From Undaria pinnatifida (taxonomy: Eukaryota; Sar; Phaeophyceae; Laminariales; Alariaceae), in contig JABAKD010000023.1 in the NCBI GenBank assembly GCA_012845835.1, positions 14,620,202-14,684,201 on the forward strand: a stretch of 64,000 nt of DNA. The letters run 5' to 3'. The position numbers were made by a program, and so were the translations under genes. Positions 12,059-44,072 of the stretch are shown here, piece after piece. The stretch's first letter is position 1, and each line of letters begins with the position of its first letter. The notes below the pieces were generated by a model that was not told the origin of the DNA, ran no database searches, and was given only the letters and a program-made list of their open reading frames with translations.

Positions 12059-12060
12059 AG

Positions 12061-15795: not shown

Positions 15796-15960
15796 AAGGT
15801 CAGTGCTGCCCAGTTTTGGCTGCTTTTACTGCGGTTCGTGCGGGCGTTACCTGTATACCCTACGGTCAGACTGGGCGCTGCTCTTATGTTGCGGTTTTGG
15901 TGGATGGTACCCTTCTTACTGCTATACTCCTTTTATACGGCTAGTTGGCGTGGCTGCTAC
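15796..15960 (+). repeat. Terminal satellite-related segment, inverted copy at 57,601
   Basis: About 165 bp match the reverse complement of 57,601-57,769 at roughly 90% by eye. Both copies end at the same point, GGCGTGGCTGCTAC. That end coincides with the outer limit of the left inverted-repeat arm. The inner part resembles a diverged 84-bp unit (GTGCTGCCCAGTTTTGG). Confidence 0.85.
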
Positions 15961-16360
15961 TGCCTAAAAGAACATCAGAGTCCGCTACGTTGGACATGAA
16001 CAGCTGACGTGGGGCCATCGGTTGGACGGTGAAAGAGAAACAACCAAGACGCGAAGAAATACGCAAGCGTCGGGCCATTAATCGAAAGGCAGAAGAGAAA
16101 GAGCCTGAAACAAGAGAAAACAAAGAACAGTGCCTAAAATAATGTCAGGGTCCGCAAGGTTGGACCTGGAAGGCTGACGTGGGACCATTGGTCGAAAGGC
16201 AAAACTATAAAAAAAAACAGTGCGCTGAGGTGTAACGGAAGCACATGGGCCGTAATGTGGGACCTAGGAAGCTAGCATAAGGCCCTTGGTCGAACTGTAG
16301 AACGGAAAACCGAGGCTACCAAAACAAATCGCGAAAACGCAGTGAAAGACAACACCTAAA
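15961..16360 (+). repeat. ~170-bp degenerate repeats at the outer arm end
   Basis: Units begin TGCCTAAAAGAACATCAG at 15,961 and TGCCTAAAATAATGTCAG at 16,131, with a weaker third near 16,219. Each runs through TGACGTGGGRCCATNGGT. In the right arm the array (43,700-44,130) continues one partial unit beyond the point where the left arm stops. Confidence 0.75.
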
Positions 16361-18970
16361 CAGTGGCACAGACAACACCAAAATGGTGGTAGTGGAGGCG
16401 TGTGTGATACGCCAGAAAGCTGAACCGGGGGCAACAGTGGAGTACCTTTAGAAGCTATCAGGGTACAGTACCATGAAAGCGGGAAGAAATAAGTGGTGAG
16501 GTCACCTAGCCAAAGCTATACGCAAACAAGGACGAAACTGAAACGTAGACACCAGAAAGACGGAAGGTACTATCGGAAGCCGGAACGAGAGTCGGCATGT
16601 GACACCTTGAGAGGCTAACAAATAACGGGAACAATGCCAGCAAACGTAGCAAGGCTATTCAACCATAACAAAGCAAGCCAAAAACGGGGTCAACACGAAG
16701 ATACTCGTTCAGTTCAAAGCAGCGCTGGAAATGTCTAGCTCCAGAAAAAACGTAGGGAACAGAGAAGACAATATGAAGAAAGCCGCAGCTAGGTACTATA
16801 CGTCGGGAACACGGAGTCGCTAAAGTGGAGCAACCCTAAAAAGGCAACCGTGAAAAATGCACGGAAAGACAGGAAATAGGCAAATCGTGTCAGAGCAACG
16901 TACTGCAGCCTGACAAAAAGAAGGAGCGTCCATAGAAAGGGACCTTGAAAGGCTACTTTAAGAAAACGAGCAACACTAGGTACGTAGCGAAGGAATTTCT
17001 CAGAAAACGATTTCGCCGAAAACACAACACGAAAAGGGGTCAACTTGGAAAGCCTAAATGGGCTGCAAGGCCAAACAGGGGTCAAAACATGGGACCGATG
17101 CGACAAGTATGCCAACAAGCCAAGAGCTAAACGGGGGCCAAGAGGGAGCGGCCTGTGAACGGTGTAGTTAAGCCCTATGGGCGGGTATGCCGAAAAAAAA
17201 ACAAGAAAAAGTGGTCGAGAGAAACAAGACCTGCTGGCTGCAAAGCCAGGACGGCGGTCAGTGTCGTTGGACCGTAGGGGAAGGGGTGCCGAGAAAAAGG
17301 TAAGAAATAGTGGTCCAGGGCAGTAGATCCGCTGGCTACAAAGTTAGAACGGAGCCCGACAGCAAGGGGCTCTTGGGGGCAGGTACAACCAAACAAGAAT
17401 GTAGAAGCCAAAGAGAAACGACAGATGGGCTGGAGAGTCAGCACGGGACCGCTAACGTGGAACCTAAGTGGGGCTCTCAATGTGAAGCCAGTGGTCGACA
17501 ACATGGGACCATAGACGGTAGCAATAGCTGGAATGCCGTAATACCAAGTGGTTGGAGCTAAAATGCAGTGACGTCAGTGGTGGGAAGAAGTACGCGAAGA
17601 ATCGAGAAAGGTCCAACAACAAAAGTGAAGTATGCCAAGGGGCAAGGAAAGTCCAACAGCAACAACAAGAGAGGAGGTAATGCCTCAGGAAAAACGAAGA
17701 GAGATAACGCGGGAAGCATCTATGTTGTCGCCAATCTCATAAGGCGAGGTGAAATCGAGACGATGGAAAACCACGATATGGTTCGGAAACGCCATGGTTC
17801 GTCGGTATGCACGAAACGTGGGCAGGCTACATCGGCGGTAGAAGGCGGAAGCAAAAGCACAAAGGCGAACACTCGTCGTACTGTAAAAAAGTAGAACAAC
17901 TTGGGCACAAATTCAAGGTCAAGGCGCCCATGAAGATCACCGCAAAACGAACAAATGCCATACTTTGAATGCGGCAAATAAGACAGAAGGCATACTACTA
18001 CGGCAAAACGATTTTGGAGCCTCAACGATAGTCAGACTTCAAGAGGGTACTTTGGGGAGCCGCGAGGCGATGCCACTGACGATACTGGTAACTACCAGGT
18101 AGGATTGTGCTGAGACAGTAGGATCCAAAGCTAATACGCGCACTAAGCGTTCACGAACAAATTCTTCAAGAAGAAAGGAGAGAAGGCTACTACGGTCGGT
18201 CGCTAGCTGCGCACAGCGATAACCACTAAGGAGCAAGCGCGTCCAAAAATAACAAGAAAGAGAAACTAGTAATACCCGCGTTGCATGGATGCGAAAGCGG
18301 AAGGTAGAGTTTCCGAAAAAAAACGAATGCCAGAGTCGGGAGGAAATACGTTCCGAAAATGCACACACTGCAGAGGGGAGGGAGTGTACGTTCCCATCCG
18401 GCACATAGTGCAGGAGGGAGGAAAAACCAAGATAGAAAAACCATGCTCACACGATATTTATTTTCAAACTCATACCGTGAGAGCGGTAAAAACGGGGTCT
18501 TAACGCAACGGAGGGCTCAGAAACTCTGCGAACGAGCACGCACATGGTGCAGACGATATCTCCGCTGAGAAGGAATCAGACGAAACTGTTACGATGTCGC
18601 GGGCTGATACCGTAAGCCTGACAGAGGGAGGGGGAAAATCACGTACAACTATAATAAAGCTAGCGGGGCGCATGCACAGCGTGCAAGCGAAGTTCAGGCT
18701 AATGGGGATCAATCGAAACTACCATGGTTTCGCGGGTTGATACTATAAAGAAGCCTAGAGGGGGGGGGTCGTCAACAAACGACGGACACGAAAATACTAG
18801 CAAAACGTTGATGTCGTGAAACTCTGAAAATGTGGCCTACTATAGAGCCAATCCTGTTGAAAGCTAAGCGACGAAACATCGGGGGAGACATACGCGAAAG
18901 CACTTGGATGTCCAATCGAGAAAAGGGGACTTGTGCAGGGCAATATGACGCAAACAAGGGGGACGGCACG

Positions 18971-19330
18971 CCTCAATAAGCACCTGCAGCGTGCGTAGTG
19001 CAGAAAACAGAGGAAGGGCCAGAGCACATACCAGGTATACCACAGTGGTAAGATAAAAAAAAGTACCTCGCCTCAAGAAGCACCTATGACGTACGTAGTG
19101 CAAAGAGTTGGGGAAGGGCTAAGACGTATATGCCACAGCGGTAAGAATCCAAATACGACGCCTCAATAAGCACCTATGACGTACGTAGTGCAAAACGCAG
19201 AAGAATAGCCAAGATAGGCATACCACAGAGGTTTTGGAGACATATACGATGCCCAAATATGCACATATTTCGTACGTAGTGCAGAAAGCAAGAGAAAGGC
19301 CAACAAAAAACATTCCACAGCGGGTTCGCG
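18971..19330 (+). repeat. ~90-100-bp tandem repeats with GTACGTAGTGCA
   Basis: Copies begin CCTCAATAAGCACCT near 18,971, 19,071 and 19,162, with a diverged copy near 19,251, each followed by a GTACGTAGTGC motif. The right-arm counterpart is ~40,780-41,080. Confidence 0.8.
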
Positions 19331-19489
19331 GACGGCGAAACAAGGGTACGCTACACCGACGAGAAGAAACGAAAACACGGCAGGTTTGGGCCAAGTTACG
19401 AAAACGGGGCAGGCTGAACCGGCACAACAGAAAAACGGAACCATCATAATTTTTTTGCATGGTTACGAAAATGGAGCCAGCTAAATCGG

Positions 19490-19640
19490 TGGCTGGAAGG
19501 CCAGGATAGCACACCGACGCAAGCACGCAAACATATGTGCTCGTCAAAAGTGGGACAACCCGAAAAGTCAGGGTAGCACACCGACACAAGCTCACGAACA
19601 TGCGTGCTGTTCAAAAGTGTGACAGCCCGAAGAGTCAAGG
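19490..19640 (+). repeat. ~72-bp two-copy tandem repeat
   Basis: A unit containing AGCACACCGACGCAAGC and GTGGGACAACCCGAAAAGTC occurs near 19,508 and again near 19,576. The right-arm counterpart is ~40,030-40,170. Confidence 0.75.
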
Positions 19641-20749
19641 CAAAGAAGAGGCACCTTGAAACTAACTGAACAACAAAGTCAAACCGGAAAGAGAAAATCA
19701 AGAAGCCAATGCGCACAAAACAAATCCCATGAAAAAAAACTCGAGAAGTAACTCAAGAATCATGGTTAGGGGGAGAGACAAGGCAAAAGGGTAAGTGCGA
19801 CTCAACGCGATAATACCCTGGCTGAAGATGTCCCTGTCGCGTGGCGTTGTAGACACGCCGGTCCGTAGATGGTGCTCCGCGAAGATATGCAGTAGACACG
19901 CCGTAGGTTGATCCTGGAACCGGGTGGTGTAGGGTTTGAAGAAAAATCCGATGAAACGCCGCTGGTGGTCGTACTAGGGTGCGCTGCAGCGCTCCGATCG
20001 CGAGACAGTGACGTCGTGGTGTTCGCGGAAGATGTGGTAGGAGCGCTGGAGACGGATGATGTTCCAGTAAAACGCGTTGAAGAGCTCCGAGCACGAACCA
20101 GTGAGGGTGGGGTGTTCGCGGACGATACGGTAGGGGCTCTGGGACGGAAGAAGACGAGGCTGTAGTAGCTCAATATGATAGGTTGAAGAAGGTGGCGGAT
20201 AGCGTACGCGGCGGTGGAATGTTCGTGTTCCGCAGCGTACATGTCGGTGTAAGCGTTGACGCCGTAGTAGTCCTTTAAAGTGGGCCAGCAGAGATGCCTG
20301 CGGTGCTCGTGGTATTGGTGTTAGCATTTTACACAGCGAGGATGGCGGCGTGGTTGCTGGAATCGGCTGTACAGAAGGCCCAAAGTTGCCGACGATGACG
20401 ATGACGCCGGGGCGGTTAGTAGCGGACTGAAGGAAAAGACCTACCGGCGCGGTGGCTGCAGCAGTCGGCGAAATATGTCCCAGCTGGTCGGTGCTGACGG
20501 TGCGATGACGCAGGAGTCGGTGGTAGTGGCCAGGGAGAGGGCGCTTCGCCGCTGGTAGCGGTTTGAAGCGGCAGACCCATCGGTGCATGGCTGCAGAAGT
20601 CGGTGAAATAATTCCCAGATTGTCGGAGTAGATGGTGGCGACGACGCCGGGGCCGGTGGTAGTGGCAAAAAAATAAAAGGCTGCCTTGACGTTGGTAGTG
20701 GCTTGAAGGAGAAAGACATCGCATGAAGAAGTCGCGGAAGACGGCGGTG

Positions 20750-21070
20750 GAGCTCAGTTGAAAGGTGAAGCTCTGACAAAGGTGGAGCTCTGGTCGCGAA
20801 GCGCAGGTGACGATAGGTGACGACGGAGCTCTGTCGAAGATGGAGCTCTGAAAAAGGTGGATCTCTGGTCTTGAAGCTCGGGTGACGACGAAGCTCTGGT
20901 GAAAGGTGGAACTCCGGTGAACGTGGAGCTCTGGTCGCGAAGCACAGGTGACGGCAAAGCTCAGGTGACGACGGGGCTCTGGTGGCGAAGCTCAAGTGAC
21001 GATGGAGCTCTGGTGGCAAAGCTCAGGTGACGACGAAGCTCAGGTGACGATGGAGCTCTGGTCGCGGTGT
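20750..21070 (+). repeat. GAGCTC-rich short-period repeats
   Basis: Variants of GGTGGAGCTCTGGTCGCGAA and GCTCAGGTGACGACG recur about every 20-25 bases. The right-arm counterpart is 38,575-38,925. Apparent Ser/Pro/Leu/Arg-rich reading frames here come from this periodicity. Confidence 0.85.
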
Positions 21071-21469
21071 TCGCGCGGCGGTGGGGGGGGGTCGATGATC
21101 TTGGAAGTGTAGCCACAGGTACTGGCCGGAAATACCGTAGTCGGAAGGACAGTCCGCAGTTTCCAGCGGCGGCTGTGGAGCGATGACGGCTCCGGGAAAA
21201 AAACGGTCCGACGAAGGATGAGGAGGGCCAAAAGGGATGCGCCAATGGTGGGCGCTGGGGACAACGAAGGACGGCCTGAAAGCCGATCCAGGAGGAGCGC
21301 CCGCGCCCTCGGCGCCTTTCTCGGAGCTGGCTAGCGAACCGGAGGCGATGTCGTGGGCCGAAATAGACCCGACCGAGGTTTTTGGGCGGAGAAGGGGTCG
21401 ACGGATTGTTTTGGTATGGTCCGCAGCGGTGAGTTGCCGAAAGTATTTCCAGCGAAACGTGGTGCATGG

Positions 21470-21930
21470 GGCAGGAGGGAGGGGGTTTGAGCCCACCCAA
21501 GTCAATGCATAATAGGAAGGGTGCACGGTTTGCGCGTCGCCGGTGGATGGGGCGGATGGTGATGGTGGGTCGAAGAAGAGGGGAAACTAGCCCACCCAAA
21601 ACGATATCCGGGATGAAATGCTCACATATTTCGACGAGGGCAACGAAGAGGCCGTGGAAGAGCCCGATTTCCATCTTAAAAGGTCCCATACGTGCCAGGC
21701 TCGGGAGGTTCAAGAGCCCGAGGAAAAAAAAACAAACGAGGAAAAAGAGGGCGGTGGAATGGTAGAGGTGGGTCTTAGAGGAGAGATAGCGAGCCCACCC
21801 AAACCGATAGTCGGTTCGAAACGCTCATACCCGCAAAAAAAAAATTAACTCCAACTCAGAAAATGGGAGCGGCATGATGTGGTGGTGGGTTGGGAGGGAC
21901 GGGGGAACGAGGCCACCCAAGCCGACGCCC
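21470..21930 (+). repeat. Spaced AGCCCACCCAA repeats
   Basis: A motif (A/G)GCCCACCCAA(A/G) recurs near 21,492, 21,590, 21,793 and 21,912, each followed by CGATA/CGACG and TCGG. The right-arm counterpart is 37,700-38,150. Confidence 0.7.
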
Positions 21931-24900
21931 GGCTCGGAGAGGTCCAAACCGGAAAGGAACAAAACCACAGGTTCAGATGGTAAACCTATAGGAATGTTAG
22001 GGTAGGGGGGGGTGGCGACAGTGGTGTCACAGAGGTGCTTTCAGCAACGGGTAGGGGTTGCCCAGGTTCAGGTGGTGAACCCACAGGGTTGTTGAGGCAA
22101 AAGGGGGGTGGCGGTATTGGTGTCGGATGGGGATTCGCGACCGTTGGGTTGAAGGGGGACTGTTCGGTGTTCACTGGCAACGGAAGCAGAATCAGTCGGG
22201 GTCCTACGTGGTTGTGTCGTCGAGGAAAGCTGAAGGGCCGTTGGTGGCAAGGATCCGGTTAATGGGGGGGTAGCTAAAGAGCTGGGTCGTGAGCGATAAA
22301 CCGTGGGTGTGTTGTGGTTGGGGGAAACCAGGGCACGCTGGTGGGTAAACGGAAAAGTTGGCCGGAAGGTACCGTTGTAGGCCTGGTATAGGCGGGATGG
22401 TTTGGGCCAGGGTAGCCGTGAAAAGGGGGCGGTAGGGGGTCCAACGTTTGTCGAAATGAGAACTAACCAGACCGTGAGGAGGAGGGCGGTTGCTTCCTCC
22501 AGATGGTCGGCGGAGACTGGAGCAAGGCGGCTCTGTGGTAACACGTCGGGGTGGAGAACGGCATGGGGGATTCGGCAGGTGCGCCTCGGTGGCAATGGAG
22601 AGGGCCGGGACAGAGGTCCTCCGTGTAAACCGGTCGCGTTGAAGGAGTGGGGCGCGGCAGAGTTGTTCTGTCGCGTTGGAAAGGGTCGGAACGAGGTCGG
22701 TAGTAGGAGGGTTCGGTGAGAAATGCCGAAACCGAGAGGGGATGACTCGTTTGCAACGGGGCGGGTTAGGGGAAGAGGCGGCTGCCAACCGAATAAAGCT
22801 GTTGTTGCTTCTGCCTATGGATGGGATTGCCAGTCTCGGGTGTACCGTTGCCGAAGCTAGAGATACGAACTGGGAGGGCGGTGGTAGATGTCGAGGGTCG
22901 TTGGGTGGTGGTACGGGAATAGTTTCCGGCGTTTGTCGGCCTCGGAACCATTATCCCAGGTAGGTAAGAAAGGGGGAGCTCCGGCGTTTGTCGGCCTTGG
23001 AACCAATGTCCATGGCTGGTCGTAGGAACGGTTCCGATACTTGCTCGGAGCCGGGTGAGCTACGGGGTCGTGATGTCGCTCAAAATGTCGGTCTCGGGCG
23101 ATGTCGGAAACTACTCCGTACGGTGATAAGAAAAAACTGTAGAAGAATCCAGAAGGGTGGCACTGCTAAAGGTTGAACATCCCAGAAGAGGCAGTTCAGT
23201 GTAAGCTGGCTGCGGTGAGCCGCCAAGCAGTGGTCAGTTGCGGCTGTCTGTAAGACTGTCGCGTGGCGATGGCGAAGGTGCAGCTGGCTGATCTAGAGAG
23301 CAGGGGCGGCTGGGTCCACGTGATCGCAAAGGGAGTCTCGGTATTGTATCACCGAGGCTCTGGGAGGATCTCCGTGGGTTGCGTTTAAAGGAGCGGGGCG
23401 AAGATACCCTGGGGGTCCTGTCTCCAAGCGGCGTTGGATGATCAGGACATAACTCGCTAGGGAATGTCGTACATGTGGTCCGTGTCCAAGCAATCCACGA
23501 TAGTTGCGGGGAAGACGGGGCAGGGGGCTCAGGGCATATCCGGGTCAACTATGATCGCGAGTCTTCCGTCGTCATGACGGGACTGTCCCTTGGGCCCAGG
23601 GGCAGTGGTGCTGTCAACACTGTGGCAGCGAGTGGGAATCCGTCGTTCGCGGGCCCAACGTTGCCACTGAAAAACGCGCACGTCCTAGGACGAGCGCGGG
23701 TGTAGCCGCCGGCGAGGCGGGCTCAGGATGCGATGGCCCGGAATTGGAAGCAGAAGTTTCGTGCTGTAGTCCGGAACCGCTGATAGCCGTGGTCTTCGGC
23801 AAGTAGCGTTGCTCATCGGTGGAAGACGTCGTGTTGAGCATCCCAGTAGGACTCGACGTCTTGGCCTCCTCGCACCCACACCTCAAGACCATCGCTAGAA
23901 CAAGGGGATCAGGCTTGGACAAGCGATATCGCATGTATGGGGCTGGGCGGGGGAGGTAGATTGTTGGGGGGCGGGGGCGTTGGTGGAGCTCGTTCTTTTA
24001 AAGTTGAAGCTGGAACCTCGTCCCGCAATTAGATGGCCTGGCGCTGGTAGTGCTGTATCGGTTAATCAGCGTGTAGCGTCCAGAAAGTTTTGCCGCAATG
24101 GGTATCGGCCGGCCACGCTGTTGCTGCCGATGTTGTCGTCGTCGTCGCAGCAATTGCCCGGGGAAGAAAGGCGATCATGGCGCTTTCGACCCAAAAATAG
24201 TTACCGCGGCATTTACAACGAGCGGCACTGGTTGTCGCGGGTTATTGCCGGGTGATGGCGCCGGGTGTATGGTCCGCACGTTTCCGTAAATTCCTAAAGT
24301 AAAAACCAACATCCTGAAGTATGCCCATACCTGGGTTGAGCGCACCAGAGGCGTAGCGGTGTTGCTACAGTGGGAGAGTGCCGCCGGCACGCTGCAGACG
24401 TCAGGGAGAACGCCCGAAAGCCAGCGGAGTGGTACTCGATGGCCAGGTAGTTGACAACGATGCTCGTCGCAGGTTGTGTCCCGTATCGCAATATGTGGTG
24501 GTTGCGAGCCACCACTTTTTTGCGGTTCGTGAGACAGACGCAGGCGTCGTGGGCGTCACAATTCGGGTGGTCGCGGCCGCCGTCGCGGTCACTACGGATA
24601 GGATGGCGTCTGCGTCGTTGGGCGACTTTGCCGTCGCTGTTACTGCGGTCAATATCGATGATGTAGGTGGTAGGCGGAGAAGAATGGTGGTGTAGGTGGT
24701 AGTCGGAGAAGAACGGTGGTCTTGACCCGAGCGGTAGGTGATGCGGGGGGGTGCGTGCGGCGTTTGTTTGGGGGCTGGTGCTTGGGGCATGTAGGGCAAT
24801 GCGGCCATAAAGTTGGTTTGGCGGCTCTGTGGCCGTTTGGACAACTGTAGTAGCGGCGGGAAGGGGTCGGAATTTCAAGGAAAAGGACCGAACCGGCAGA

Positions 24901-26373
24901 TTACCGCAGACCGAGCGTCTAACGATGCCGACATGAGTCGTAGTTGGGTAGGTACGACGTGGCCAATAACCGAAAAAAACATTTTACCGCAGACAGGGGT
25001 GCCTTTGGGTGCCACCCGGTCGAGACCGTGGGCGCGTCGGATGCAGTTGTGAGCAAGTACCAGCAAACAAAAGCAGGGGCGATTGGGCGCAGGGGGTTAA
25101 GCGCGGTGATGGGCGGGCGATTTTGAACCGTTGTGGTGATAGAAGCGGCCGCGTGGGGTGGGCGGGTATGAGAGCCGGGGTTGGGATGTGAGCAGCAACG
25201 TGTCGGTTGGGACGGTAGTCGTGGCTCAGATGGGGGGATGGGGCACAAGTAACACCGCGGCAATGGCCTGATGGGTGTCGTTGCGCCGAAACACTCTGTG
25301 GTAGTTGTCGCTATACTTGCGGCGTTGTTGTTGTGACCCCCCGCGGAAAAACAATTAACCTCTTGCCCTCAGGCACTAAACAAAAAATCGCAGTCGCATA
25401 AGGTGGGCGTCTCTCGTAGAGGGACCCGTCCTCCTAATCTCGGCGCGTAAGGTGGCCGTACCAAACGTCGAGGAATCCGGTTTGACTGGAATCGGTCGGG
25501 GTGAGTGGCGGCGGTGGGAATGCCATTAACGACCACGGCCGCAAAAATGCGCTCCGGGCATTATTTCGATTTTATTGAACAGATTGACAAGGTCCTTCAC
25601 CGTAACTGTACCACCCATGGCTACAGCAGGAGAAGAACGCGAAGCACACTGCTCATTGTGAGGGTTGAGGGATTGGGTCCTGGTTGGTGCGGGATTTACC
25701 GCGAGGGTTGGGGGTGAGGTCCATGTTGGTCCGGAATGGATAGGGAAGGTATCGCACGCACCGGAGTAGAGAAGTAGGATGTAGTACAAGTAGTTTTCGA
25801 ACGTCACCAAGAAGACCGGAGGGTGATGGATGATTGTAGATATTCCTGGGGGAGGAGCGTGGTGCTCGGGAGATGGTTAGAAGCACCGAGTTATCCAGTC
25901 AAAAACAAATCAAAATCAGACCTTACAACACGGAAAATATGTGTACCTCTTGCACCCGTCGATAACCTAAGCTATGTTTGAGGTTTTCCGAAGCAAAGAT
26001 CCGGACCCAAAAATGACGGTATACTTCAGGGGTGCACTGTTTGAAAAAATACCGGGGGGGGGTTCCGTGTAACACGCGTAATATACTCGTGAGAAAGGGA
26101 GAGAAAAATGGCACTCGGAGCGCGACGCACTCGTAGTGCGGTTATTCAACAGTATTTTTGCTCAAGCACGATCCTAATACAGTTCGGGTCAGTCCAACGC
26201 TGCATCAGGTAGGGAGTGCGTAACAGCAAAAACGGAAGCCTCATAAAAATAGTTTAAACACGCGTGGGGTACAAAGCGTATTGACGAGGCTCGCGGCACG
26301 TTGAGTCTTCACCCTCACAGAGTTTTTCCAAATACAACACAGTGCACCGTGAGAGTGTTTTATAAAATACTAC

Positions 26374-26411
26374 ATTTTTTTTTTTTTTTTCATCCTCCGG
26401 CGGATGGGGAA
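26374..26411 (-). mobile_element. 38-bp retroposed fragment with poly-A tail
   Basis: Present only in the left arm. A 17-base T-run followed by CATCCTCCGGCGGATGGGGA is flanked by ACTAC on both sides (26,369-26,373 and 26,412-26,416). The right arm at ~33,199-33,209 has a single uninterrupted GTAGT. A homopolymer tail plus a target duplication is the mark of target-primed reverse transcription. The donor is unknown. Confidence 0.7.
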
Positions 26412-26929
26412 ACTACCGATATGATATTGTGGGATGCTCGACGTGTAATACCGTCCTTCACGCATTCTGGGGTTGAAATCCCCCCAAAAATTGAATGCAC
26501 CGTGACAAAGCAATCATTGTCAGTTGCGTAAGGCAGCATTATGTGCAGCGCGTGTTGATGCTCGTGTCAAGACGATCATGGTTGCACGACCATTTTTGCA
26601 AGCCGAGATGCGCGCCAGCATAATGAAGGCAACACGTGCAGCATAGAAACGGAGGGGGGGCATTTCCCGTGGTTGCTCGCAAAATTATTGTCAAGCAACT
26701 AACAGCAGAAATGAATGCCTTCAAACCATGAAAAAAAAAAAAAAAACAGTTGTTGACTTTCAAGCTTGCGCAGCAACGTTACAATTTTGAGCAGAATAGA
26801 CCCTGCGTTGTCGTAAAATTGAAGCGGAAAATGCGTTGAAATTTGGGCATCATCTACCCTATATCACCAGAAACGGGGAAAAGTAAACTCGGTCGGGTGA
26901 CAAAATGTGGGCAAATCTGAGCAGCGTCT

Positions 26930-27540
26930 ACTCCACTACTTCATACGAGATGGGGCAGATGCGAGGGAACTTTGATGCTTTTTTTTCTTTTTTTTTTTGA
27001 AAAATTTGGTAGCGTAGAGCCTGCTTTTGTTGTGGTGTAAAAGCTGGCCGAACGCGGGGGGGGAGGAAATAATCCAATATTAGACAGGGTAGAGCTCGGG
27101 CACGACAGATAGACTGGCAAAATGCTCTTACAGCAGAAACATATGGGCATGATAGAGCCCATATATGGCTTAAAACTGGTAAGAGGCACGGTTACTGCCG
27201 CATTTCGGACGATGTGAGCAGCATAGGGGGCCGTGCGTGAGACAAAACCGACGGAATTGACATATATGACACTAGTATCCTGACAAATTAAGGCAGCATA
27301 AAGCCTTTGTATGACAGAAGGCTGGCGAGATACACGTACTACAGCAGTATTTTGTCAAATTTAAACAGCGTAGATGCGATGCAATGGCCAAAATGTACGA
27401 AGTGTACGCTAAACAGCAGCATGGTGACAAATGGCAGCATAGAGCTCTGTATGTCATAAGCTGTTAAGAATTGCACACTGGACAACGGTAATTTGGCCAT
27501 AGCAGTGCATGGCCCGTGTATGTCTTATAACTGGAGAGAT
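26930..27540 (+). repeat. Degenerate ~90-bp repeats at the inner arm end
   Basis: Recurring GCAGCATAGAGC / CAGCGTAGA and GTATGTC.TAA blocks with AAATTTGAGCAGC variants. The right-arm counterpart is ~31,960-32,580. Confidence 0.6.
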
Positions 27541-27950
27541 GGTACGTGCGACACCACCAGTGTATAAAAACAAAACGAAAGTTTGCACAAACAAAACAGT
27601 GCAAGTAGTAATTCCCCAAGACAAATTTTAGCAGCAGTTACTCGTACGTGCTTGTTAACCAAGCAAGAAACAAGCAAACAAAGTAGATAATAACAAAGCA
27701 AACAAGGAAAATGCATCAAGACAAAAGAAACAAGCGGGGGGCAAGCCAAAACGACTTTGGGATGTCGGTGGAAACGCGGTACTACTGGGAGTATCAGGAC
27801 AAGACGCAACCATGCATACAAGCCTGAAACCCTGGGAGTCAGACTCGGTACAACTCCGTACCTGGTGGGGAGGTAGGTATGCCACATGACTATGAGGGTG
27901 TGCCACGCCCGTAAGGTTGTGTCAAACTATACGTGTGTACGTACCACTGC

Positions 27951-31396: not shown

Positions 31397-31554
31397 CTGC
31401 CCGCATAGCTGGTGGTGTCAGCATTTACTATACGGCGTGTGATTGGCATCGGATACGACGTATTAGTCATATTTTTGCTTGGGTACCTTTCGTGAGACAG
31501 CGGCTAATAGGCAATTTGCGTACCCCGTACACAGAAGTACCCCGTACACAGAAG
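30670..31554. other. Loop, last part: no gene seen; 30-base T-run
   Basis: An open frame at 30,867-31,289 (minus) has no recognisable domain. An uninterrupted run of 30 T occupies 31,367-31,396. A C-run lies near 30,998. Confidence 0.5.
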
Positions 31555-34500
31555 TAGTGGTACGTACACGAGTAGGGGTTGACACGTACCTTACGGGAGT
31601 GGCACACCCTCATAGCCATGTAGCAGACCTACCTCCCCACCCACCAGGTGTGGTGTTGTACCGAATCCGAATACCAGGGTTTCAGGCCTGCATATAAGGT
31701 TGCGTCTTGTCCTGATACCCCCAGTAGTACCCCGTTTCCACTGCCATCCCAAAGTCGTTTTGGTTTGCCCCTGGTTTGATTGTTCTTTTGTTTTGATGCT
31801 TTTCCCTTGTTTGCTTTATTAATAGCTACTTTGCTTGCTTGTTTCTTGCTTGGTTAACAAGCACGTACGAGTAACTGCTGTGCTGTTTAAACTTGTCTTG
31901 GGGAATTGCTACTGTTTTTGTGCAAACTTTCGTTTTGTTTTTGTACACTGGTGAAGTACATACATCTCTCCAGTTATAAGACATACACGGGCCCTGCACT
32001 GCAATGGCGAAATTACCGTTGTCCGGTGTGCAATGCTTACCAGCTTTATGACATACAGAGCTCTATGTTGCCATTTGTCACCATGCTGCTGTTTAGCGTA
32101 CACTTAGTACATTTTGGTCATTGTTTCGCATCTACGCTGTTTAAATTTGACAAAATACTGCTACATGCATCTCGCCAGCCCTCTGTCATACACAGGCTTT
32201 ATGCTGCCTTAATTTGTCAGGATACTAGTGTCATATATGTCAATTCCGTCGGTTTTGTCTCACGCATGGCCCCCTATGCTGCTCACATCATCCGAAATGC
32301 AGCAGTAGTAATCGTGCCTCTGACTTACCAGTTTTAAGCCACATATGGGCTCTATCATGCCCATATGCTTCTGCTGTAATAGCATTTTGCCAGTTTATTT
32401 GTCGCGACCGAGCTCTACGCTGTCTAATATTGGATTATTTCCTCCCCCCCCGCGTTCGGCCAGCTTTTACACCACAACAAAAGCAGGCTCTACGGTACCA
32501 AACTTTTTTCGACAGGAAGCACCAAAGTTTCCTCGCATCTGCCCCATCTCGTATGAAGTAGTGAAGTAGACGCTGCTCAGATTTGCCCACATTTTGTCAC
32601 CCGACCGAGTTTACTTTCCCCCGTTTCCGGTGATATAGGGTAGATGATGCTCAAATTTCAACGAATTTTCGGCTTCAGTTTTACGATAACGCAGGGTCTA
32701 TTCTGCTCAAAATTGTAACGTTGCTGCGCAAGCTTGAAAGTCAACAACGTTTTTTTTTTTGTTTTTTTTTTTGCTTTGAAGACATTCATTTCTGCTGTTA
32801 GTTGCTTGACAATAATTTTGCGAGCAACTACGGGAAATGCCCCCCTCCGTTTCTCTGCCATATTGACACTTGTTTGGCATGTCTCAATTAATTCTGACGT
32901 GCCCCCCGTGTTTTTGTTTTTGTTGTTCGTGCCGGAAAATCACAATAGTACAGTTATCTATGATGCACGTGTTGCCTTCATTATGCTGGCGCGCATCTCG
33001 TCGTACAAAATACGATCAAAAATGGTCATGCAACCATGATCGCCTTGTCACGAGCATCAACACGCGCTGCAAATAATGCTGACTTAGGCAATTGAAAATG
33101 ATTGCTTTGTCACGGTGCATTTTTTTTTATTCAGGGATTTCAACCCCAGAATGAGCGAACGACGGTATTACACGTCGAGCATCCCACAATATCATATCGG
33201 TAGTATTTTATAAAATCCTCTCACGGTGCACTGTGTTCTATTTGGAAAATCTCTGTGAGGGTGAAGACTCAACGTGCCACGAGCCTTGTCAATACGCTTT
33301 GTACCCCACGCGTGTTTAAACTATTTTTATGAGGCTTCCGTTTTTGCTGTTACGCACCCCCGACCTGATGCAGCGTTGGACTGACCCGAACTGTAATAGG
33401 ATCGTGCTTGAGCAAAAATACTGTTGAGTAAAACCGCACCCCGAGTGCGTCGCGCTCCGAGTGCTATCTCTCTCTTTTTTTTCACGAGTATATTACGCGT
33501 ACACGGAACCCCCCCCCGGTATTTTTTAAAACAGTGCACCCCAGAAGTATACCGTTATTTTTAGGTCCGGATTTCGGCTTCGGAAAACCTCAAACACAGC
33601 TTAGGTTATCGACGGGTACAAGAGGTACACATATTTTCCGTGTTGTAAGGTCTGATTTTGTTTTGTTTTCGACTGGATAACTCGGTGCTTCTAACCATCT
33701 CCCGAGCACCACGCTCCTCCCCCGGGAATATCTACAATCATCCATCACCCTCCGGTCTTCTTGGTGACGTTCGAAAACTACTTGTACTACACTTCTCTAC
33801 TCCGGTGCGTGCGATACCTTCCCTATCCATTCCGGACCAACATGGACCCCACCCCCAACCCTCGCGGTAAATCCCGCACCAACCAGGACCCAACCCCTTA
33901 ACCCTCACAATGAACATTGTGCTTCGCGTTCTTCTCCTGCTGTAGCCATGGGTGGTACAGTTACGGTGAAGGACCTTGCCATTCTGTTCAATAATATCGA
34001 AATGATTCCCGGAGCGCATTTTTGCGGCCGGGGTCGTTGATGACATTTCCACCGGGGCCACTGACCCCGACCCATTTCAGTCAAACCGGATGCCTCGAAG
34101 TTTGGTACAGCCACCTTACGCGCCGAGACTGGGAGGACGGATCCCTCAACGAGAGGCGCCCACCTGATGCGACTGCGATTTTTGTTTAGCGCCTGAGGGC
34201 ACGAGGTTAATTGTTTTTCCATGGGGAATCACAACAACGCCGCAAGTACAGCGACGACTACCACAGAGTGTGTCGGCGCAACGGTACCCATCAGGCCAGT
34301 GCCGCGGCTACGGCCCTTTGTGCCCCATCCCCCCATCTGAGCCACGACTACCGTCCCAACCGACACGTTGCTGCTCACATCCCAACCCCGGCTCCCATAG
34401 CCGCCCACCCCACGCGGCCGCGTCTATCACCACAACGGTTCAAAATCGCCCGCCCATCACCGCGCTTAACCCCCTGCGCCCAATCGCCCCTGATTTTGTT

Positions 34501-37500
34501 GGCTGGTACTTGCTCACAACTGCATCCGGCGCGCCCACGGTCTCGACCGGGCGGCACCCAAAGACACCCCTGTCTGCGGTAAAATGTTTTTTCGGTTGTT
34601 GGCCACGTCGTACCTACCCAACTACGACTCATGTCGGCATCGTTAGACGCTCGGTCTGCGGTAATCTGCCGGTTCGGTCCATTTCCTTGAAATTCCGACC
34701 CCCTCCCGCCGCCACTACAGTGCTCAAAACGGCCACAGAGCCGCCAAACCAACTTTATGGCCGCATTGCCCTACACGCCCAAAGCCCCAGCACCCACCTC
34801 CCGTGCACCCACTGCTTGAAAACGCCGCACACGCCCTCCGCAACCAGCCCCCCCTAAAACGCCGCATGCACCCCCCCACATCACCTACCGCTCGGGTCAA
34901 GACCACCGTTCTTCTCCGACTATCACCTAGACCACCATTCTCCTCCGCCTACCACCTACACCACTGATATTGACCGCAGTAACAGCGACGGCAAAGTCGC
35001 CCAACGACGCAGACGCCATCATATCCGTAGTGGCCGCAACGACGGTCGCGCCCACCCGAATTGTGAAGCCCACGACGCCTGCGTCTGTCTCACGAACCTC
35101 AAAAAGTGGTGGCTCGCGACCACCACATATTGCGATACGGGACACAACCTGCGACGAGCATCATTATTAACCACCTGGCCATCGAGTACCACTCCGCTGG
35201 CTTTCGGGCGTTTTTCCTGACGTCTGCATCGTGCCGGCGGCACTCTCCCACTGTAGCAACACCGCTACGCCTCTGGTGCGCTCAACCCAGGTATGGGCAT
35301 ACTTCAGGATGTTGGTTTTTACTTTAGGTATTTACGGAAACGTGCAGACCATACACCCGGCGCCATCACTCAACAATAACCCGCGGCAACCAGTGCCGCT
35401 CGTTGTAAATGCCGTGGCACCTATTTTTTGGGTTGAAAGCGCCATGATCGCCTTTCTTCCTCGGACAACTGCTGCGACAACGACGGTAACATCGACAGCA
35501 ACAGCGTCGCCGGCCGATAATCATTACGGCGCAAATCCCTGGACCCTACACGCTGATTAATCGATACAGCACTACAAGTGCCAGGCCATCAAAATGTGGG
35601 ACGAGGGTCCAGCTTCAACTTTGAAAGAACTAGCTCCACCCACGCCCCCGCCCCCCAACAATCTACCCCGCCCGCCCAGCCCCATACATGCGATATTGCT
35701 TGTCCAAGCCTGATCCACTTGTCCTATCGATGGTCTTGAGGTGTGGGTGCGAGGAGGCCAAGACGTCGAGCCCTACTGGGATGCTCCACCCGACGCCTTC
35801 CACCGATGAGCAACGCTACCTGCCGAAGACTATGGCTATCAGCGGTTGCGGACTACAGCACGAAACTTCTGCTTCCAATTCCGGGCCATCGCATCCTGAG
35901 CCCGCCTCGCCTATTTATCGGCGGCTACACCCGCGCTCGTCCCAGGACGTGCGCGTTTTTCAGTGGCAACGTTGGGCCCGCGAACGACGGATTCCCACTC
36001 GCTGCCACAGTGTTGACAGCACCACTGCCCCTGGGCCCAAGGGACAGTCCCGTCATGGTGACGGAAGACTCGCGGTCATAGTTGACCCGGATATGCCCTA
36101 ATCCCCCTGCCCCGTCTACCCCGCAACTCTCGTGGATTGCTTGGACACGGACCACAGGTACGACATTCCCTAGCGAGTTATATCCTGATCATCCAACGCC
36201 GCTTGGAGACAGGACCCCCAGGGTATCTTCGCCCCGCTCCTTGAAACGTAACCCACGGAGACCCTCCCAGAGCCTCGGTGATACAATACCGAGACTCCCT
36301 TTGCGATCACGTGGACCCAGACGGCTCTGTTGTCTAGATCAGCCAGCTGCACCTTCGCCATCGCCACGCGACAGTCTTACAGACAGCCGCAACTGACCAC
36401 TGCTTGGCGGCTCACCGCAGCCAGCTTACACCGAACTACCTCTTCTGGGATGTTCAACCTTTAGCAGTGCCACCCTTCTGGGTTCTTCTTCTACAGTTTT
36501 TTCTTATCACCGTACGGAGTAGTTTCCGACATCGCCCGAGACCGACATTTTGAGCGACATCACGACCCCGTAGCTCACCCGGCTTCGAGCAAGTATCGGA
36601 ACCGTTCCTATGATCAGCCATGGACATTGGTTCCGAGGCCGACAAACGCCGGAGCTCCCCCTTTCTTACCTACCTGGGATAATGGTTCCGAGGCCGACAA
36701 ACGCCGGAAACTATTCCCGTACCACCACCCAACGACCCTCGACATCTACCACCGCCCTCCCAGTTCGTATCTCTAGCTTCGGCAACGGTGCACCCGAGAC
36801 TGGCAATCCCATCCATAGGCAGAAGCAACAACAGCTTTATTCGGTTGGCAGCCGCCCCTTCCCCTAACCCGCCCCGTTGCAAACGAGTCATCCCCTTTCG
36901 GTTTCGGCATTTCTCACCGAACCCTCCTACTACCGACCTCGTTCCGACCCTTTCCAACGCGATAGAACAACTCTGCCGCGCCCCACTCCTTCAACGCGAC
37001 CGGTTTACACGGAGGACCTCTGTCCCGGCCCTCTCCATTGCCACCGAGGCGCACCTGCCGAATCCCCCATGCCGTTCTCCACCCCGACGTGTTACCACAG
37101 AGCCGCCTTGCTCCAGTCTCCGCCGACCATCTGGAGGAAGCAACCGCCCTCCTCCTCACGGTCTGGTTAGTTCTCATTTCGACAAACGTTGGACCCCCTA
37201 CCGCCCCCTTTTCACGGCTACCCTGGCCCACACCATCCCGCCTATACCAGGCCTACAACGGTACCTTCCGGCCAACTTTTCCGTTTACCCACCAACGTGC
37301 CCTGGTTTCCCCCAACCACAACAAACCCACGGTTTATCGCTCACGACCCAGCTCTTTAGCTACCCCCCCATTAACCGGATCCTTGCCACCAACGGCCCTT
37401 CAGCTTTCCTCGGCGACACAACCACGGACGACCCCGATTGATTCTGTTTCCGTTGCCAGTGAACACAGAACAGTTCCCCTCCAACCCAACGGTCGCGAAT

Positions 37501-40500
37501 CCCCATCCGACACCAGTACCGCAACCCCCCTCTTTTTGCCTTAACAACCCTGTAGGTTCACCACCTGAACCTAGGCAACCTCTATCCGTCCCTGAAGGCA
37601 TCTCCGAGACGCCACTGTCGCCACACCCCCCTACCCTAACATTCCTATAGGTTTACCATCTGAACCTGTGGTTTTGTTCCTTTCCGGTTTGGACCTCTCC
37701 GAGCCGGGCATCGGCTTGGGTGGGCTCGTTCCCCCGTCCCTCCCAACCCACCACCACATCATGCCGCTCCCATTTTCTGAGTTGGTGTCGATTTCGTTTT
37801 TCCGGGTATGAGCGTTTCGAACCGACTATCGGTTTGGGTGGGCTCGCTATCTCTCCTCTACGACCCACTTTTACCTTTCCACTGCCCCCTTTTCCCGAGT
37901 TTGTTATTGTTTTTCCTCGGGCTCTTGAACATCCCGAGCCTGGTACGTATGGAACCTTTTAAGCCAGAAATCAGGCCCTTCCACGGCCTCTTCGCTGCCC
38001 TCGTCGAAAGATGTCAGCATCCCATCCCGGGTATCGTTCTGGGTGGGCTAGTCCCCCTCTTCTTCGACCCACCATCACCAATCGCCCCCATCCACCTGCG
38101 ACGCGCAAACCGTGCACCCTTCCTGTGAGGCATTGATTGGGGTGTGCTCAACCCCGCCCCCTCCTGCCCCATGCACCACCACATTTCGCGGGAAACACTT
38201 TCGGCAACTCACTGTTGCGGACCATACCAAACATCCGTCGACCCCTTCTCTGCCCCAAAACCTCCGTCGGGCCTATTTCGGCCTATGACATCACCTCCGG
38301 TTCGCTAGCCAGCTCCGAGAAAGGCGCCGAGGACGCGGGCGCTCCTCCTGGATCGGCTTTCAGGCCGTCCTTCGTTCTCCCCAGCGCCCACAATTGGCGC
38401 ATCCCTTTTCGGCCCTCCTCATCCTTCGTCGGACCATTATTTTCCCGGAGCCATCATCGCGCCACAGCCGCCGCTGGAATTTGTGGACTGTCCTTCCGAC
38501 TACGGTTTTTCCGGCCAGTACCTGTGGCTACACTTCCAAGATCATCGACCCCCCCCCACCGCCGCGCGAACACCGCGACCAGAGCTCCATCGTCACCTGA
38601 GCTTTGCCACCAGAGCTCCATCGTCACCTGAGCTTCGTCGTCACCTGAGCTTTGCCACCAGAGCTCCATCGTCACCTGAGCTTCGCGACCAGAGCTCCAC
38701 GTTCACCGGAGTTCCACGTTTCACCAGAGCTTCGTCGTCACCCGAGCTTCGAGGCCAGAGATCCACCTTTTTCAGAGCATCATCTTCGACAGAGCTTCGT
38801 CGTCACCTGCGCTTCGCGACCACAGCTCCTCCTGCGCGAAGATTCGTCGTCACCTGTCGTCATCTGAGCCTCGCGACCAGAGCTCCACCTTCGTCGGAGC
38901 TCCACCTTTCACCTGAGCTCCACCTCCGTCTTCCGCGACTTCTTCATTCGATGCCTTTCTCCTTCAAGCCACTACCAACGTCAAGGCAACCTTTTCTTTT
39001 TTGGCCACTGCCGCCGGCCCCGGCGTCGTCGCCACCATCTACTCCGACAATCTGCAATTATTTCACCGACTTCTGCAGCTATGCATCGATGGGCCTGCCA
39101 CTTCAAACCGCTACCAGCGGCGAGGCGCCCTCTTCCTGGCCACTACCACCAACTCCGGCGTCATCGCACCGTCAGCGCCGACCAGCTGGGACATATTTCG
39201 CCGACTCCTGCAGCCACCGCGCCGGAAGGTCTGCTCCTTCAGTCCGCTACTAACCGCCCCGGCGTCATCGTCATCGTCGGCAACTTCGGGCCTTCTGTAC
39301 AGCCTATTCCAGCAACCACGCCGTCATCCTCGCTGCGTAAAATGCTAACTCCAACACCACGAGCACCGCAGGCATCTCCACTGGCCCACTTTAGGACAAC
39401 TACAACGTCAACGCTTGCGTCTACATGTACGCTGTGGAACACGCACATTTCACCGCCGCGTACGCGATCCGACACCTTCTCCAACCAACCATATTGAGCT
39501 ACTATAGCCTCGTCTTCTTCCGTCACAGAGCTCCTACCGCATCGCCCGCGAAGTCCCCGCCCAACCTGGTTCATGCTCGGAGCTCTTCAACGCGTTTTAC
39601 TAGGCCATCATCCGTCTTCAGCGCTCCTACCACATCTTCCGCGAACACCACGACGTCACTGTCTCGCGATCGGAGCGCTGCAACACACCCTACTACGACC
39701 ACCAGCCGCGTTTCATCGGATTTTTCTTCAGACCCTGCACCACCCGGTTCCAGGATCAACCTACGGCGTGTCTACTGCAAATCTTCGCGGAGCACCATCT
39801 ACGGACCGGCGTGTCTAAACCGCCACGCGACAGGGATATCTGCAGCCAGGGTATTATCGCGTTGAGTCGCACTTGCCCTTTTGTCTTGTCTCTCCCCCTA
39901 ACCATGTTTCTCGAGTTCCTTCTTGAGCTTTTTTAATTCGATTTGTTTTGTGTGCATTGGCTTTTTGATTTTCTCTTTTGGGTTTGATTTTGTTGTGCAG
40001 ATAGTTTCAAGGTGCCTCTTCTTTGCCTTGACCTTTAGGGTTGTCACACTTCTGACCAGCACGTATGTTCGCGTGTTTGCGTCGGCGTGCTACCCTGACG
40101 TTTCGGGTTGTCCCACTTTTGACCAGCACATATGTTTGCGTACTTGCGTCGGTGTGCTACCCTGGCCTTCCAGCCACCGATTTAGCTGGCTCCATATTCG
40201 TAACCAGGCCAAAATATTTGTGGTGGTTCCGTCTTCCTGTTTGTGCCGGTTTCGCCTGCCCCTTTTTCGTAACTTGGCCCAAACCTGTCGTGTTTTCGTT
40301 TCCTCTCGTCTGTTTAGTGTGTTGGTGATAGCGGCAGTGTGTATCGGCCGAGCTGCTGTAGATCATCTGATTGGACAGTTTGAATATTGAATTGTCAATT
40401 GTAGTAAGTTGATGCTGGATATTCTGGGAATACTCTTTGTGGTACTTCGGTAGGTTGTACACAAGTACGAGCTATACAATGGACCGTAGGTGTGTGTGTC

Positions 40501-43500
40501 GGTACATTGGTATGTGGTACATTGGACACTTATCCAGTAGGAAGGCTCAGGCATTGTTGCTGTAGGTCTGACTATCGGGTAGATGCATAGCGTGATCCTG
40601 AGAGTGAGGTTGTGCGCGCCCACGAGCGCCCCCACCCTGCTCACTCCACCTTGCCTACCTGTCTCAGAAGGGCAGTTGCTCAATAATACAACATTTTTCC
40701 CCAGAAGCCACGAGTTTACCAACCTAGTGTACCCTTGTTTCGCAGCCTGCGAACCCGCTGTGTTTTTTTTTGTTGGTCTTTCTCTTGCTTTCTGCACTAC
40801 GTACAAAATAGGTGCATATTTGGGCGTCGTGTATGTCCCCAAACCCGCTGTGGTACGCCCATCTTAGCCCTTTCCCAAGTCTTTGCACTACGTACGTCAT
40901 AGGTGCTTCTTGAGGCATCGTATTTCTTCTGTTACCTCTGTGGTATGCCTGGAATGTGCTCTGGCCCTTCCTCTGTTTTCTGCACTACGCACGCAGGGGT
41001 GTTATTGAGGCGCGTTGTCCACCTTGTTTGCGTCATATCGCCCTGCACAAGTCCCCTCTTCTCGATTGGACATCCAAGTTCGTTTGCGTATGTCTTCCCC
41101 GATTTCTCGTCGCTTAGCTTCCAATAGGAATGGCTTTATAGTAGGCCACATTTTCAGAGTTTCACGACGTCAACTTTTTGCTAGTATTTTCGGGTCCGTC
41201 GTTTGTTCACGACACCCCCCTCTAGGCTTCTTTATAGCATCAACCCCCGAAACCATGGTAGTTTCGCTTGATCCCCATTAGCCTGAACTTCGCTTGCACG
41301 CTGTGCATGCGCGCCGCTAGCATTGTTAGAGTTGAATGTGACTTGCCCCCTCCCTCTGTCCGGCTGACGGTATCAGCCCGCGACATCGTAACAGTTTCGT
41401 CTGATTCCTTCTCAGCGGAGATATCGTCTGCACCATGTGCGTGCTCGTTCGCAGAGTTTCTGAGCCCTCCGTTGTGTTATCACCCCGTTTCCACTGCTCT
41501 TACGAGATGAGTTAAAAAATATATCGTGTTAGCTTGGTTTCTCTATCTTGGTTTCCCTTTCCCCTGCACTATGTGCCGGATGGGAACGTACACTCCCTCC
41601 TCTCTGCAGTGTGTGCGCTTTCGGAACGTATTTCCTCCCGACTCTGGCGCTCGTGAATTTTCGGAACCGATACCTTCCGCTTTCGCGTCCATGCAACGCG
41701 GGTATTATTCGTTTATTTTTCTTGTTATTTCTGGGCACGCTTGCTCCTTAGTGGTTATCGCAGTGCGCAGCTAGCGACCGACCGTAGTAGCCTTCTCTCC
41801 TTTCTTCTGGAAGAATTTGTTCGCGTATTAGCTTTGGACCCTACTGTCTCAGTACAATTCTACCTGGTAGGCTCCAGTAAGTGATATCGCCTCGCGGATC
41901 CCCGAAGTACCCCCTTGAAGTCTGACTATCGTTGAGGCTCAAAAAACGTCTTACCGTAGTAATATGCCCCTTCAGCCTTATTTGCCACGTTCAAAGTATG
42001 GCATTTGTTCGTTTGTTTCAGTGATCTTCATGTGCGCCTTGATCTTGAACTTGTGCCCAAGTTGTTCTACTTTTCTACAGTACGACGAGTGTTCGCCTTT
42101 GTGGTTTTACTTCCGCCTTCTACCGCCGATGTAACCTGCCCACGTTTCGTGCATACCGACGAACCATGGCGTTTCCCAACCATATCGTGGTTTTCCATCG
42201 TCTCGATTTCACCTCGCCTTATGCGATTGGCGACAACATAGATAGATGCTTCCTGCGTTGTTCTCTTCGTTTTTCGCGAGGCATTACCTCCTTTCTTGTT
42301 GCTGTTGGACTTTCCTTGCCCCTTGGCATACTTCCTTTTTGTTGTTCTTGTTGGACTTTCCTTGCCCCTTGGCATACTTCCCTTGTGTTGTTGGACTTAT
42401 CTTGCTTCTTGGCGTACTTCTTCCCACGACTGACGTCGCTGCACTATAGCCCCAGCCACTTGGTATTACGGCATCCCAGCTATTGCTACCGTCTATGGTC
42501 CCATATGGTCGACCACTGGCTTCACATTGAGAGCCCCCCCTTGGGTTCCTTGTTAGCGGTCCCGTGCTGGCTCTCCAGCCCATCTGTCGGTTCTCTTTGG
42601 CCTCTACCTTCTTGTTTAGTTGTGCCTGCCCTCAGGACCCCCTTGCTGTCGGGCTCCGTTCTAGCTTTGTAGTCAGCGGATCCATTCCCCTGGACCACTC
42701 TTTCTTACTTTTTTATTGGTACCCCTACCCCTACGGTCCAACGACACTGACCCCCGTCCTGGCTTTGCAGCCAACAGATCTCCACTTTTTCTTGTTTCTT
42801 TTCGGCATACCTGCCCATAGGGTTCACCTAGACCGGCCTTAATCATGGGTTTACAGCCCGTCCTGACTGTGCAGTCCACAGGCCGTCCCGTCTTGGCCCC
42901 CGTTTTGCTCTTGGCTTGTTGGCATTCTTGTCGCATTGGTCCCATGTTTTGACCCCTGTTTGGCTTCGCAGCCCATTTAGGCTTTCCAAGCTGACCCCCT
43001 TTCGTGTTGTGGTTTCGGCGAAATCGCTTTCGGAGGAATGCCTTCGCTACGTACCTAGCGTTGCTCGTTTTCTTAAAGTAGCCTTTCAAGGTCCCTTGCT
43101 ATGGACCCTCCTTCTTTTTGTCAGGCTGCAGCACGTTCCTATGACACGACTTGCCTACCTCCTGTTTCTCCGTGCATTTTTCTCGGTTACCTTTTTAGGG
43201 TTGCTCCACGTTATCGACCCCGTGTTCCCGACGTCTAGTACCTAGCTGCGGATTTCTTCTTATTGTCTTCTGTGTTCCCTGCATTCTTTCTGGAGCTAGA
43301 CACTTCCAGCGCTGCTTCGAGCTGAACGAGTATCTTCTTCTTAACCCCATTTTTGGCTTGCTTTCTTATGGTTGAATAGCCTCGCTACGTTTGCTGGCAT
43401 TGTTCCCGTTATTAGTTAGCCTCTCGAGGGGTCATATGTCGACTCTCTTTCCGGCTTCCGATAATACCCTCCGTTTTTCTGTGTCTACGTTTCAGTTTCG

Positions 43501-44072
43501 TCCTTGTTTGCGTATTGCTTTGGCTGGGTGAACTCACCACTTATCTCTCCCCGTCTTCCCGGCATTGTACCCAGATAGCTTCTTAGGGTATTCCACTGTT
43601 GCCCCCCGGTTCAGCGTTCCGGCGTATCACACACGCCTCCAGTACCACCAGTTTGGTGTTGTCTGTGTCACTGTTTAGGTGTTGTATTCCTCTGCGTTTT
43701 AGCGATTTGTTTTGGCTTCCTCGGTTTTCCGTTCTACAGTTTGACCAAGGGCCTTATGCTAGCCTCCTAGGTCCCACATTACGGCCCCTGTGCTTCCGTT
43801 ACACCTCAGCGTACTGGTTCTTTATAGTTTTGCCTTTCGACCAATGGCCCCACGTCAGCCTTCCAGGTCCAACTTTGCGGACCCTGGCATTATTTTAGGC
43901 ACTGTTCTTTGTTTTCTCTTGTCTCAGGCTCTTTCTCTTCTGCCTTTCGATTAATGGCCCGACGCTTGTGTACTTGTTCGCGTCTTGGTATTTCTCTTCC
44001 ACCGTCGAACCGATGGCCCCACGTCAGCTGTGCATGTCCAACGTAGCGGACTCTGATGTTCTTTTAGGCAGT
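31555..44072 (-). repeat. Right arm of the giant inverted repeat (~12.5 kb with a solo LTR)
   Basis: Reverse complement of 15,959-27,950. Without the inserted solo LTR and its target duplication the arm is about 12.1 kb, close to the left arm's 12.0 kb. The outer end reads GCGGACTCTGATGTTCTTTT then AGGCAGT. Subrepeat arrays occur in mirrored order. There is no recognisable gene. Confidence 0.95.
40320..40724 (+). mobile_element. Solo LTR of the Copia family, within the right arm
   Basis: 405 bp beginning TGTTGGTGATAGCGG and ending CGAGTTTACCAACC, nearly identical to the LTRs at 2,101 and 7,892 but in the opposite orientation. TAGTG flanks both sides (40,315-40,319 and 40,725-40,729). The left arm at 19,344-19,363 has the uninterrupted site. 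Solo LTRs arise by recombination between the two LTRs of a full element. Confidence 0.95.

Follow-up and report, generated by a model that had tools for sequence, protein, structure and literature searches.

A candidate fold-back duplication of a dispersed non-coding repeat in the genome of the brown alga Undaria pinnatifida

Background

At 21 sequenced junctions of human fold-back inverted duplications, the spacer between the two inverted copies ranged from 766 to 70,466 bp with a median of 3,428 bp (PMC3907307). Mobile elements of the foldback type present a second class of long inverted repeats. For the foldback-like element Galileo, inverted ends of up to ~1.26 kb were described in D. mojavensis (PMC3573991), and ectopic recombination between copies has been reported (PMC2775673). 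A target duplication of 8-10 bp was present in 45 of 53 Tm1 elements, 9 bp being the commonest length (PMC3169594). Ectocarpus has been described to contain giant DNA transposons, 10 to over 30 kb in length and in some families presumably non-autonomous; according to the same study, brown algae control transposons by small RNAs and chromatin marks, without a silencing machinery comparable to that of animals or plants (PMC12477816). Artificial palindromes are a known amplification artefact (PMC6218980).

The DNA analysed here, referred to as the window, is a stretch of 64,000 nucleotides of U. pinnatifida (contig JABAKD010000023.1, positions 14,620,202 to 14,684,201, forward strand). A sequence-only reading had proposed two inverted arms around a 3.6-kb loop and had left undecided whether they constitute a mobile element or a one-off inverted duplication. 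This doubt was fair; the evidence favours a local inverted duplication with later conversion. With a probability of about one half, the locus goes back to an old inverted duplication in which a 12-kb stretch of a dispersed, non-coding and strand-asymmetric repeat was copied by chromosomal fold-back repair, without the action of a foldback transposase. The titles and abstracts surveyed yielded no report of this locus; subscription papers were mostly beyond this search, and absence from print is not established by it.

Results

Inverted arms and loop

Self-BLAST of the window returned collinear minus-strand blocks between 15,959-27,951 and 44,072-31,553, with identities of 85.8-93.0% and E values of 0 to 2e-55. 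In the global alignment the arms were 92.3% identical, with 904 differences in 11,737 compared columns, a figure that excludes about 400 columns around a solo LTR, and a ti/tv ratio of 1.41. The alignment contained 73 indels, a count that includes about 50-70 bases of flank per end. The inverted similarity is genuine and greatly exceeds chance, and the proposed arms, their coordinates and the 3.6-kb loop were confirmed by the BLAST chain and the alignment:

15,959-27,951, plus strand: left arm (self-BLAST and global alignment)
27,952-31,552, no strand: loop (spacer) of 3.6 kb, halves without inverted similarity beyond shuffles
31,553-44,072, minus strand: right arm, the reverse complement of the left arm (self-BLAST and global alignment)

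The biggest length difference between the arms is the solo LTR of ~0.4 kb, present in the right arm only. A loop that is a decayed continuation of the palindrome was not supported: its halves scored like shuffled sequences in inverted comparison (z 1.7; z 0.8 for the 440-bp edge).

Ends and flanks

At its outer end the left arm starts at 15,959, directly after a T-rich repeat:

15,794-15,960, plus strand: T-rich repeat that abuts the left arm at its outer end; inverted copy at 57,601-57,770

The similarity of the inverted copy stops within a base or two of the start of the left arm. The T-rich left flank was rejected as another arm copy, since its similarity to the arm was no better than that of 10 shuffles (z 0.2; z 0.9 on the other strand). 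An 84-bp minisatellite of ~14 copies occupies 14,525-15,715, within the T-rich stretch of ~13.0-15.96 kb that adjoins the left arm. The right arm continues at its outer end into a different sequence, and the outer flanks of the two arms differ. Both observations of the sequence-only reading on this subject, outer ends that are not preserved on both sides and no visible target duplication, were thus borne out, the latter for the whole unit: the longest word common to both outer flanks has 3 bases. An old target duplication around the unit could have decayed.

Considered alone, the right arm is without a flanking word of 4 or more in common. The left arm has CTGCT at 15,954-15,958, before its outer start, and again at 27,947-27,951, at its inner end; this could be a 5-bp target duplication if the left arm ends at 27,946, and words of 5 or more were common to 911 of 5000 random pairs. 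Microhomology was not resolved at the inner spacer edge, which is too diverged, and inspection of the shared arm ends by eye revealed no terminal motif. Beyond the shared ends the flanks differ, as they would for any element, and the arm ends alone do not place the true ends of the family. In one database protein, P0140, arm-core sequence precedes a segment that matches the minus strand at 44,208-44,134 with 88% over 25 residues. This position lies just beyond the right arm, a hint that the family extends further than 44,072 or has been inserted into itself.

Outside the arms lies an inverted pair of 270 bp (12,058-12,326 and 47,933-48,202) that is 90.4% identical and contains a 26-bp palindrome. 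Its centre at 30,130 is close to that of the outer arm ends at ~30,016, making the arrangement nearly symmetrical. This position would fit a palindrome that formerly extended further, or a dispersed repeat so placed by chance.

Composition of the arms

The arms had been described as built from many minisatellites. Small arrays are present, mostly two to four copies of ~31, 48, 67, 90-100, 136 or 170 bp, as is a diverged 17-bp array of 10-12 copies, but the description was overstated. Arrays detected by TRF covered 665 of 11,993 bases in the left arm and 675 of 12,520 in the right arm, ~5.5% of each. Local tandem similarity, scored by Smith-Waterman comparison against 20 shuffles per test window, exceeded a z of 5 in 25 of 163 test windows (13 of 80 in the left arm, 12 of 83 in the right arm). 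As the left flank at 9-13 kb gave a comparable count (5 of 27), the arms are no richer in tandem repeats than ordinary left flank. The same test was positive in 2 of 24 test windows of the loop, 8 of 91 of the right flank and 13 of 20 of the left flank at 13.0-15.96 kb. A profile search for the inner-arm repeat unit retrieved only 4 units per arm.

Purines account for 60.3% of the plus strand in the left arm and 40.1% in the right arm. This bias peaks at the outer arm ends, and each half of the loop leans like its neighbouring arm. Transitions were in excess on the purine strand in arm-relative orientation, with a context-matched odds ratio of 1.56 (p 0.003), or 1.50 with CpG kept (p 0.001) and 1.48 with the core kept (p 0.006). 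Taken singly, the three sub-regions all fell short of significance (p 0.14, 0.33 and 0.056), for which reason strand-asymmetric transitions were set aside as an argument.

Coding content and RNA

Eight ORFs of the arms and two of the loop were compared with Pfam. None matched a family at the curated cut-off, one weak match to a DUF had an E value of 0.09, and a transposase was not found among these ten ORFs. Codon periodicity in the differences between the arms was no stronger than chance: a mod-3 chi-square above 6 was reached in 1 of 40 blocks of 300 bp. Coding arms were not supported on these two grounds, the absent periodicity and the lack of Pfam matches at cut-off in the eight arm ORFs. 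The arms look non-coding, a judgement that covers the eight ORFs and the periodicity; the earlier statement that they hold no recognisable gene stands for the ORFs scanned. RNA families were absent from the window at Rfam gathering scores.

A dispersed repeat family

Protein searches with translated arm sequence matched four regions of the arms:

17,470-18,025, minus strand (partner 41,932-42,567, plus strand): outer arm, matched by 4 database proteins
21,752-23,083, minus strand (partner 36,550-37,914, plus strand): arm core, to which 22 database proteins align in different frames
24,857-25,544, minus strand (partner 34,022-34,708, plus strand): middle of the arm, matched by 6 database proteins
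27,015-27,500, minus strand (partner 32,047-32,502, plus strand): inner arm, matched by 1 database protein, P0152

The 22 proteins found with the arm-core ORF match both arms in several frames when mapped back, as expected of non-coding DNA that is open by chance. A joined probe of the middle, outer and inner regions found 12 proteins, one of them the window's own and 11 others. The 33 matched proteins carry the label 'ena' and lie on contigs of up to 34,493 bases. By these matches, arm pieces distributed across 10 kb (17,470-27,500) are therefore multi-copy, which speaks against arms of ordinary single-copy sequence. The other copies may be arranged as one long element. Relatives of the arms were absent from the viral contigs and prokaryote genomes searched, a collection that possibly leaves out records near the source genome.

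The relation of the two arms to these copies was determined at codons alignable with both arms, in rows of at least 25 codons and after removal of P0143, the window's own protein. In all 34 rows (22 core, 12 outside; 33 proteins) the arm-arm distance was smaller than the distance from either arm to the other copy, where one codon may count in several proteins and the copies sampled may include other species. In the core, the arm-arm distance was 0.043, compared with 0.280 and 0.285 to the other copy; outside the core the values were 0.122 against 0.300 and 0.295, a comparison resting on 12 rows only. Conversion adds to the closeness of the arms. The narrowest margin was that of P0152 (0.09 versus 0.13 and 0.18). 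Arms that are nearer to each other than to any sampled copy favour one local inverse duplication over independent insertions.

Gene conversion between the arms

One part of the arms is much less diverged than the remainder:

22,221-23,720 on the left-arm side, no strand: gene-conversion tract, located by difference counts; partner in the right arm at ~36.0-37.4 kb from the alignment and the arm-core protein matches

The best 1000-bp segment (22,221-23,220) holds 14 differences, a value reached in 0 of 2000 block permutations, and the whole 1500 bp (22,221-23,720) holds 32, so that a tract of 1-1.5 kb is 1.4-2.1% diverged. By zone, divergence amounted to 3.2% at 21.9-23.8 kb versus 6.6-10.1% in the other four zones. 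Other copies were ~0.28 distant in the core and ~0.30 outside, measured on different protein sets; with similar values inside and outside, constraint on the family is an unlikely cause of the low divergence. We regard the tract as a sign of arm-to-arm gene conversion.

LTRs and neighbouring elements

Two LTR-related features lie in the locus:

40,316-40,721, no strand: solo LTR belonging to the Copia family of the window, confined to the right arm; duplication of 5 bp at its flanks and empty site in the left arm, both by eye
30,269-30,637, plus strand: LTR-like dispersed repeat in the loop; direct copy at 44,531-44,906, 92%

The presence of the LTR in the right arm and of an empty site in the left arm means that the arms existed before the insertion. 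The minus strand carries a Copia-type retrotransposon at 2,104-8,298 with RVT_2 and Pol_BBD domains; its two LTRs are 99% identical, and a duplication of 5 bp was seen by eye at its flanks.

The LTR-like direct repeats at 30,269-30,637 and 44,531-44,906 bracket the right arm. A LARD-like arrangement, in which the right arm is the interior of an LTR-bounded non-coding element, needs paired LTRs and an in-register target duplication. The flanks of the pair have either the 6-base word TCCTGT in common, out of register, or a 4-base word, depending on the end taken; a word of 6 or more was common to 234 of 5000 random pairs. The loop repeat has a possible duplication of its own, AAATG, which suits a separate insertion.

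Two further traces of mobile elements were observed in the right flank. The ORF at 62,457-63,077 carries DDE_Tnp_4 and Plant_tran domains; we take it to be perhaps a fragment of a Harbinger-like transposase. A Gypsy-type integrase fragment at 49,768-50,592 had no Pfam match of its own, while several of the proteins it matched carry an integrase domain. This ORF obtained 825 protein matches, with close ones on many contigs; of the 120 listed, two bear a species label, both of them Ectocarpus sp. (62 and 64% identity), which by itself makes a brown-algal source of the window probable.

Discussion

Origin of the locus

Fold-back repair is the preferred origin of the duplication: it accounts for the spacer, for the abrupt ends and for the similarity between the arms. 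In its favour are also the lack of a target duplication, both for the unit and for the right arm by itself, the differing flanks, the absent codon periodicity, the conversion tract and the solo LTR that the left arm lacks. The unduplicated spacer of 3.6 kb falls within the range of the human junctions, near their median. The duplication would have begun with a break to the left of the present loop and resection, whereupon the free 3' end would have folded back onto its own strand and paired there a few kilobases further in. Outward synthesis with the right arm as template would then have produced the left arm, and the end of the copying would have been joined to T-rich repeat DNA at ~15,959. 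Later the arms would have drifted to ~8% divergence, a solo LTR would have entered the right arm, and conversion would have homogenised at least one tract of 1-1.5 kb. The left arm is probably the derived, inverted copy and the right arm the template. We infer the break and the fold-back themselves, which at 8% divergence are no longer readable. Three observations are less well accommodated: the left end coincides with the end of the second T-rich copy, unexpected for a random joint; CTGCT is a possible target duplication of the left arm; and the near-symmetrical 270-bp pair suggests that the duplication may once have been longer.

Separate insertions present another route to the same geometry: two copies of one non-autonomous element, e.g., a giant DNA transposon or a large retrotransposon derivative, would have integrated 3.6 kb apart in opposite orientation and been converted afterwards. 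The dispersal of the arm pieces, the size and presumed non-autonomy of some Ectocarpus families, the low-divergence tract with its indication of conversion, the possible CTGCT duplication and the LTR-like pair around the right arm, with TCCTGT out of register in its flanks, are all consistent with it. We nevertheless consider this origin rather unlikely. Every row, including those from outside the converted tract, places the arms nearer to each other than to the sampled copy, and the flanks of the right arm lack a common word of 4 or more. In addition, the shared ends displayed no terminal motif by eye, and the loop repeat with its possible AAATG suits an insertion of its own. An assembly or amplification artefact that placed arms of different molecules together is very improbable: artificial palindromes do arise in amplification, but neither a chimeric read nor a recent amplification product would be expected to show ~8% divergence, 73 indels and an LTR confined to a single arm.

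A true foldback-type mobile element, with the 12-kb arms as giant terminal inverted repeats that move as one unit, is improbable. It would account for the great length of the inverted ends, for the occasional tandem repeats inside them and for the multi-copy nature of the arm sequence, and the ectopic recombination reported for Galileo offers a parallel. However, the arms are mostly not tandem arrays, the unit is without a target duplication, its outer flanks differ, the eight arm and two loop ORFs scanned contain no transposase, and the inverted ends of Galileo in D. mojavensis are far shorter. The comparison with foldback elements made by the sequence-only reading is for these reasons not supported. 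Also improbable is a giant brown-algal family of foldback mobile elements with gene-free, purine-asymmetric arms of at least 12 kb, kept alike by conversion and transcribed into a long hairpin RNA from which small RNAs that silence its relatives would be made; such a family is compatible with the surplus of purine-strand transitions and with the near-symmetrical 270-bp pair. If the small-RNA reading were true, the locus would offer a source of long double-stranded RNA that is open to testing. For a duplication by fold-back repair as well, transcription of the whole locus could yield an RNA that forms a long imperfect duplex. The arms present a natural record of an inverted duplication that is old enough for a drift of ~8% and yet still converting, in DNA without a recognised gene.

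Comparison with known systems

With the foldback-type transposons Galileo and Tm1 the locus has long inverted ends and some internal tandem repeats in common, but its arms exceed the greatest length of Galileo ends given in the source about tenfold (PMC3573991). Moreover, they are not mainly tandem, and neither a target duplication of the unit nor a transposase was found. The giant or non-autonomous DNA transposons of Ectocarpus (KDZ, EnSpm, Sola-1) come from what is probably the same group of algae and are likewise very long and dispersed, and several families carry only genes without transposase homology; they are described with genes, and with terminal motifs in a figure legend, whereas the arm displays neither (PMC12477816). 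Mammalian sex-chromosome palindromes resemble the locus in their large inverted arms and arm-to-arm gene conversion. They differ from it in that no gene was recognised in the arms described here, and that conversion is visible in one tract and not over the whole arm (PMC6790999). Human fold-back inverted duplications are patient rearrangements of entire chromosome segments, with megabase-scale duplications in the tabulated cases considered, whereas the duplication in U. pinnatifida comprises 12 kb of a repeat family and is ~8% diverged. In both, inverted copies surround a spacer of a few kilobases, and one side is joined abruptly to other DNA (PMC3907307).
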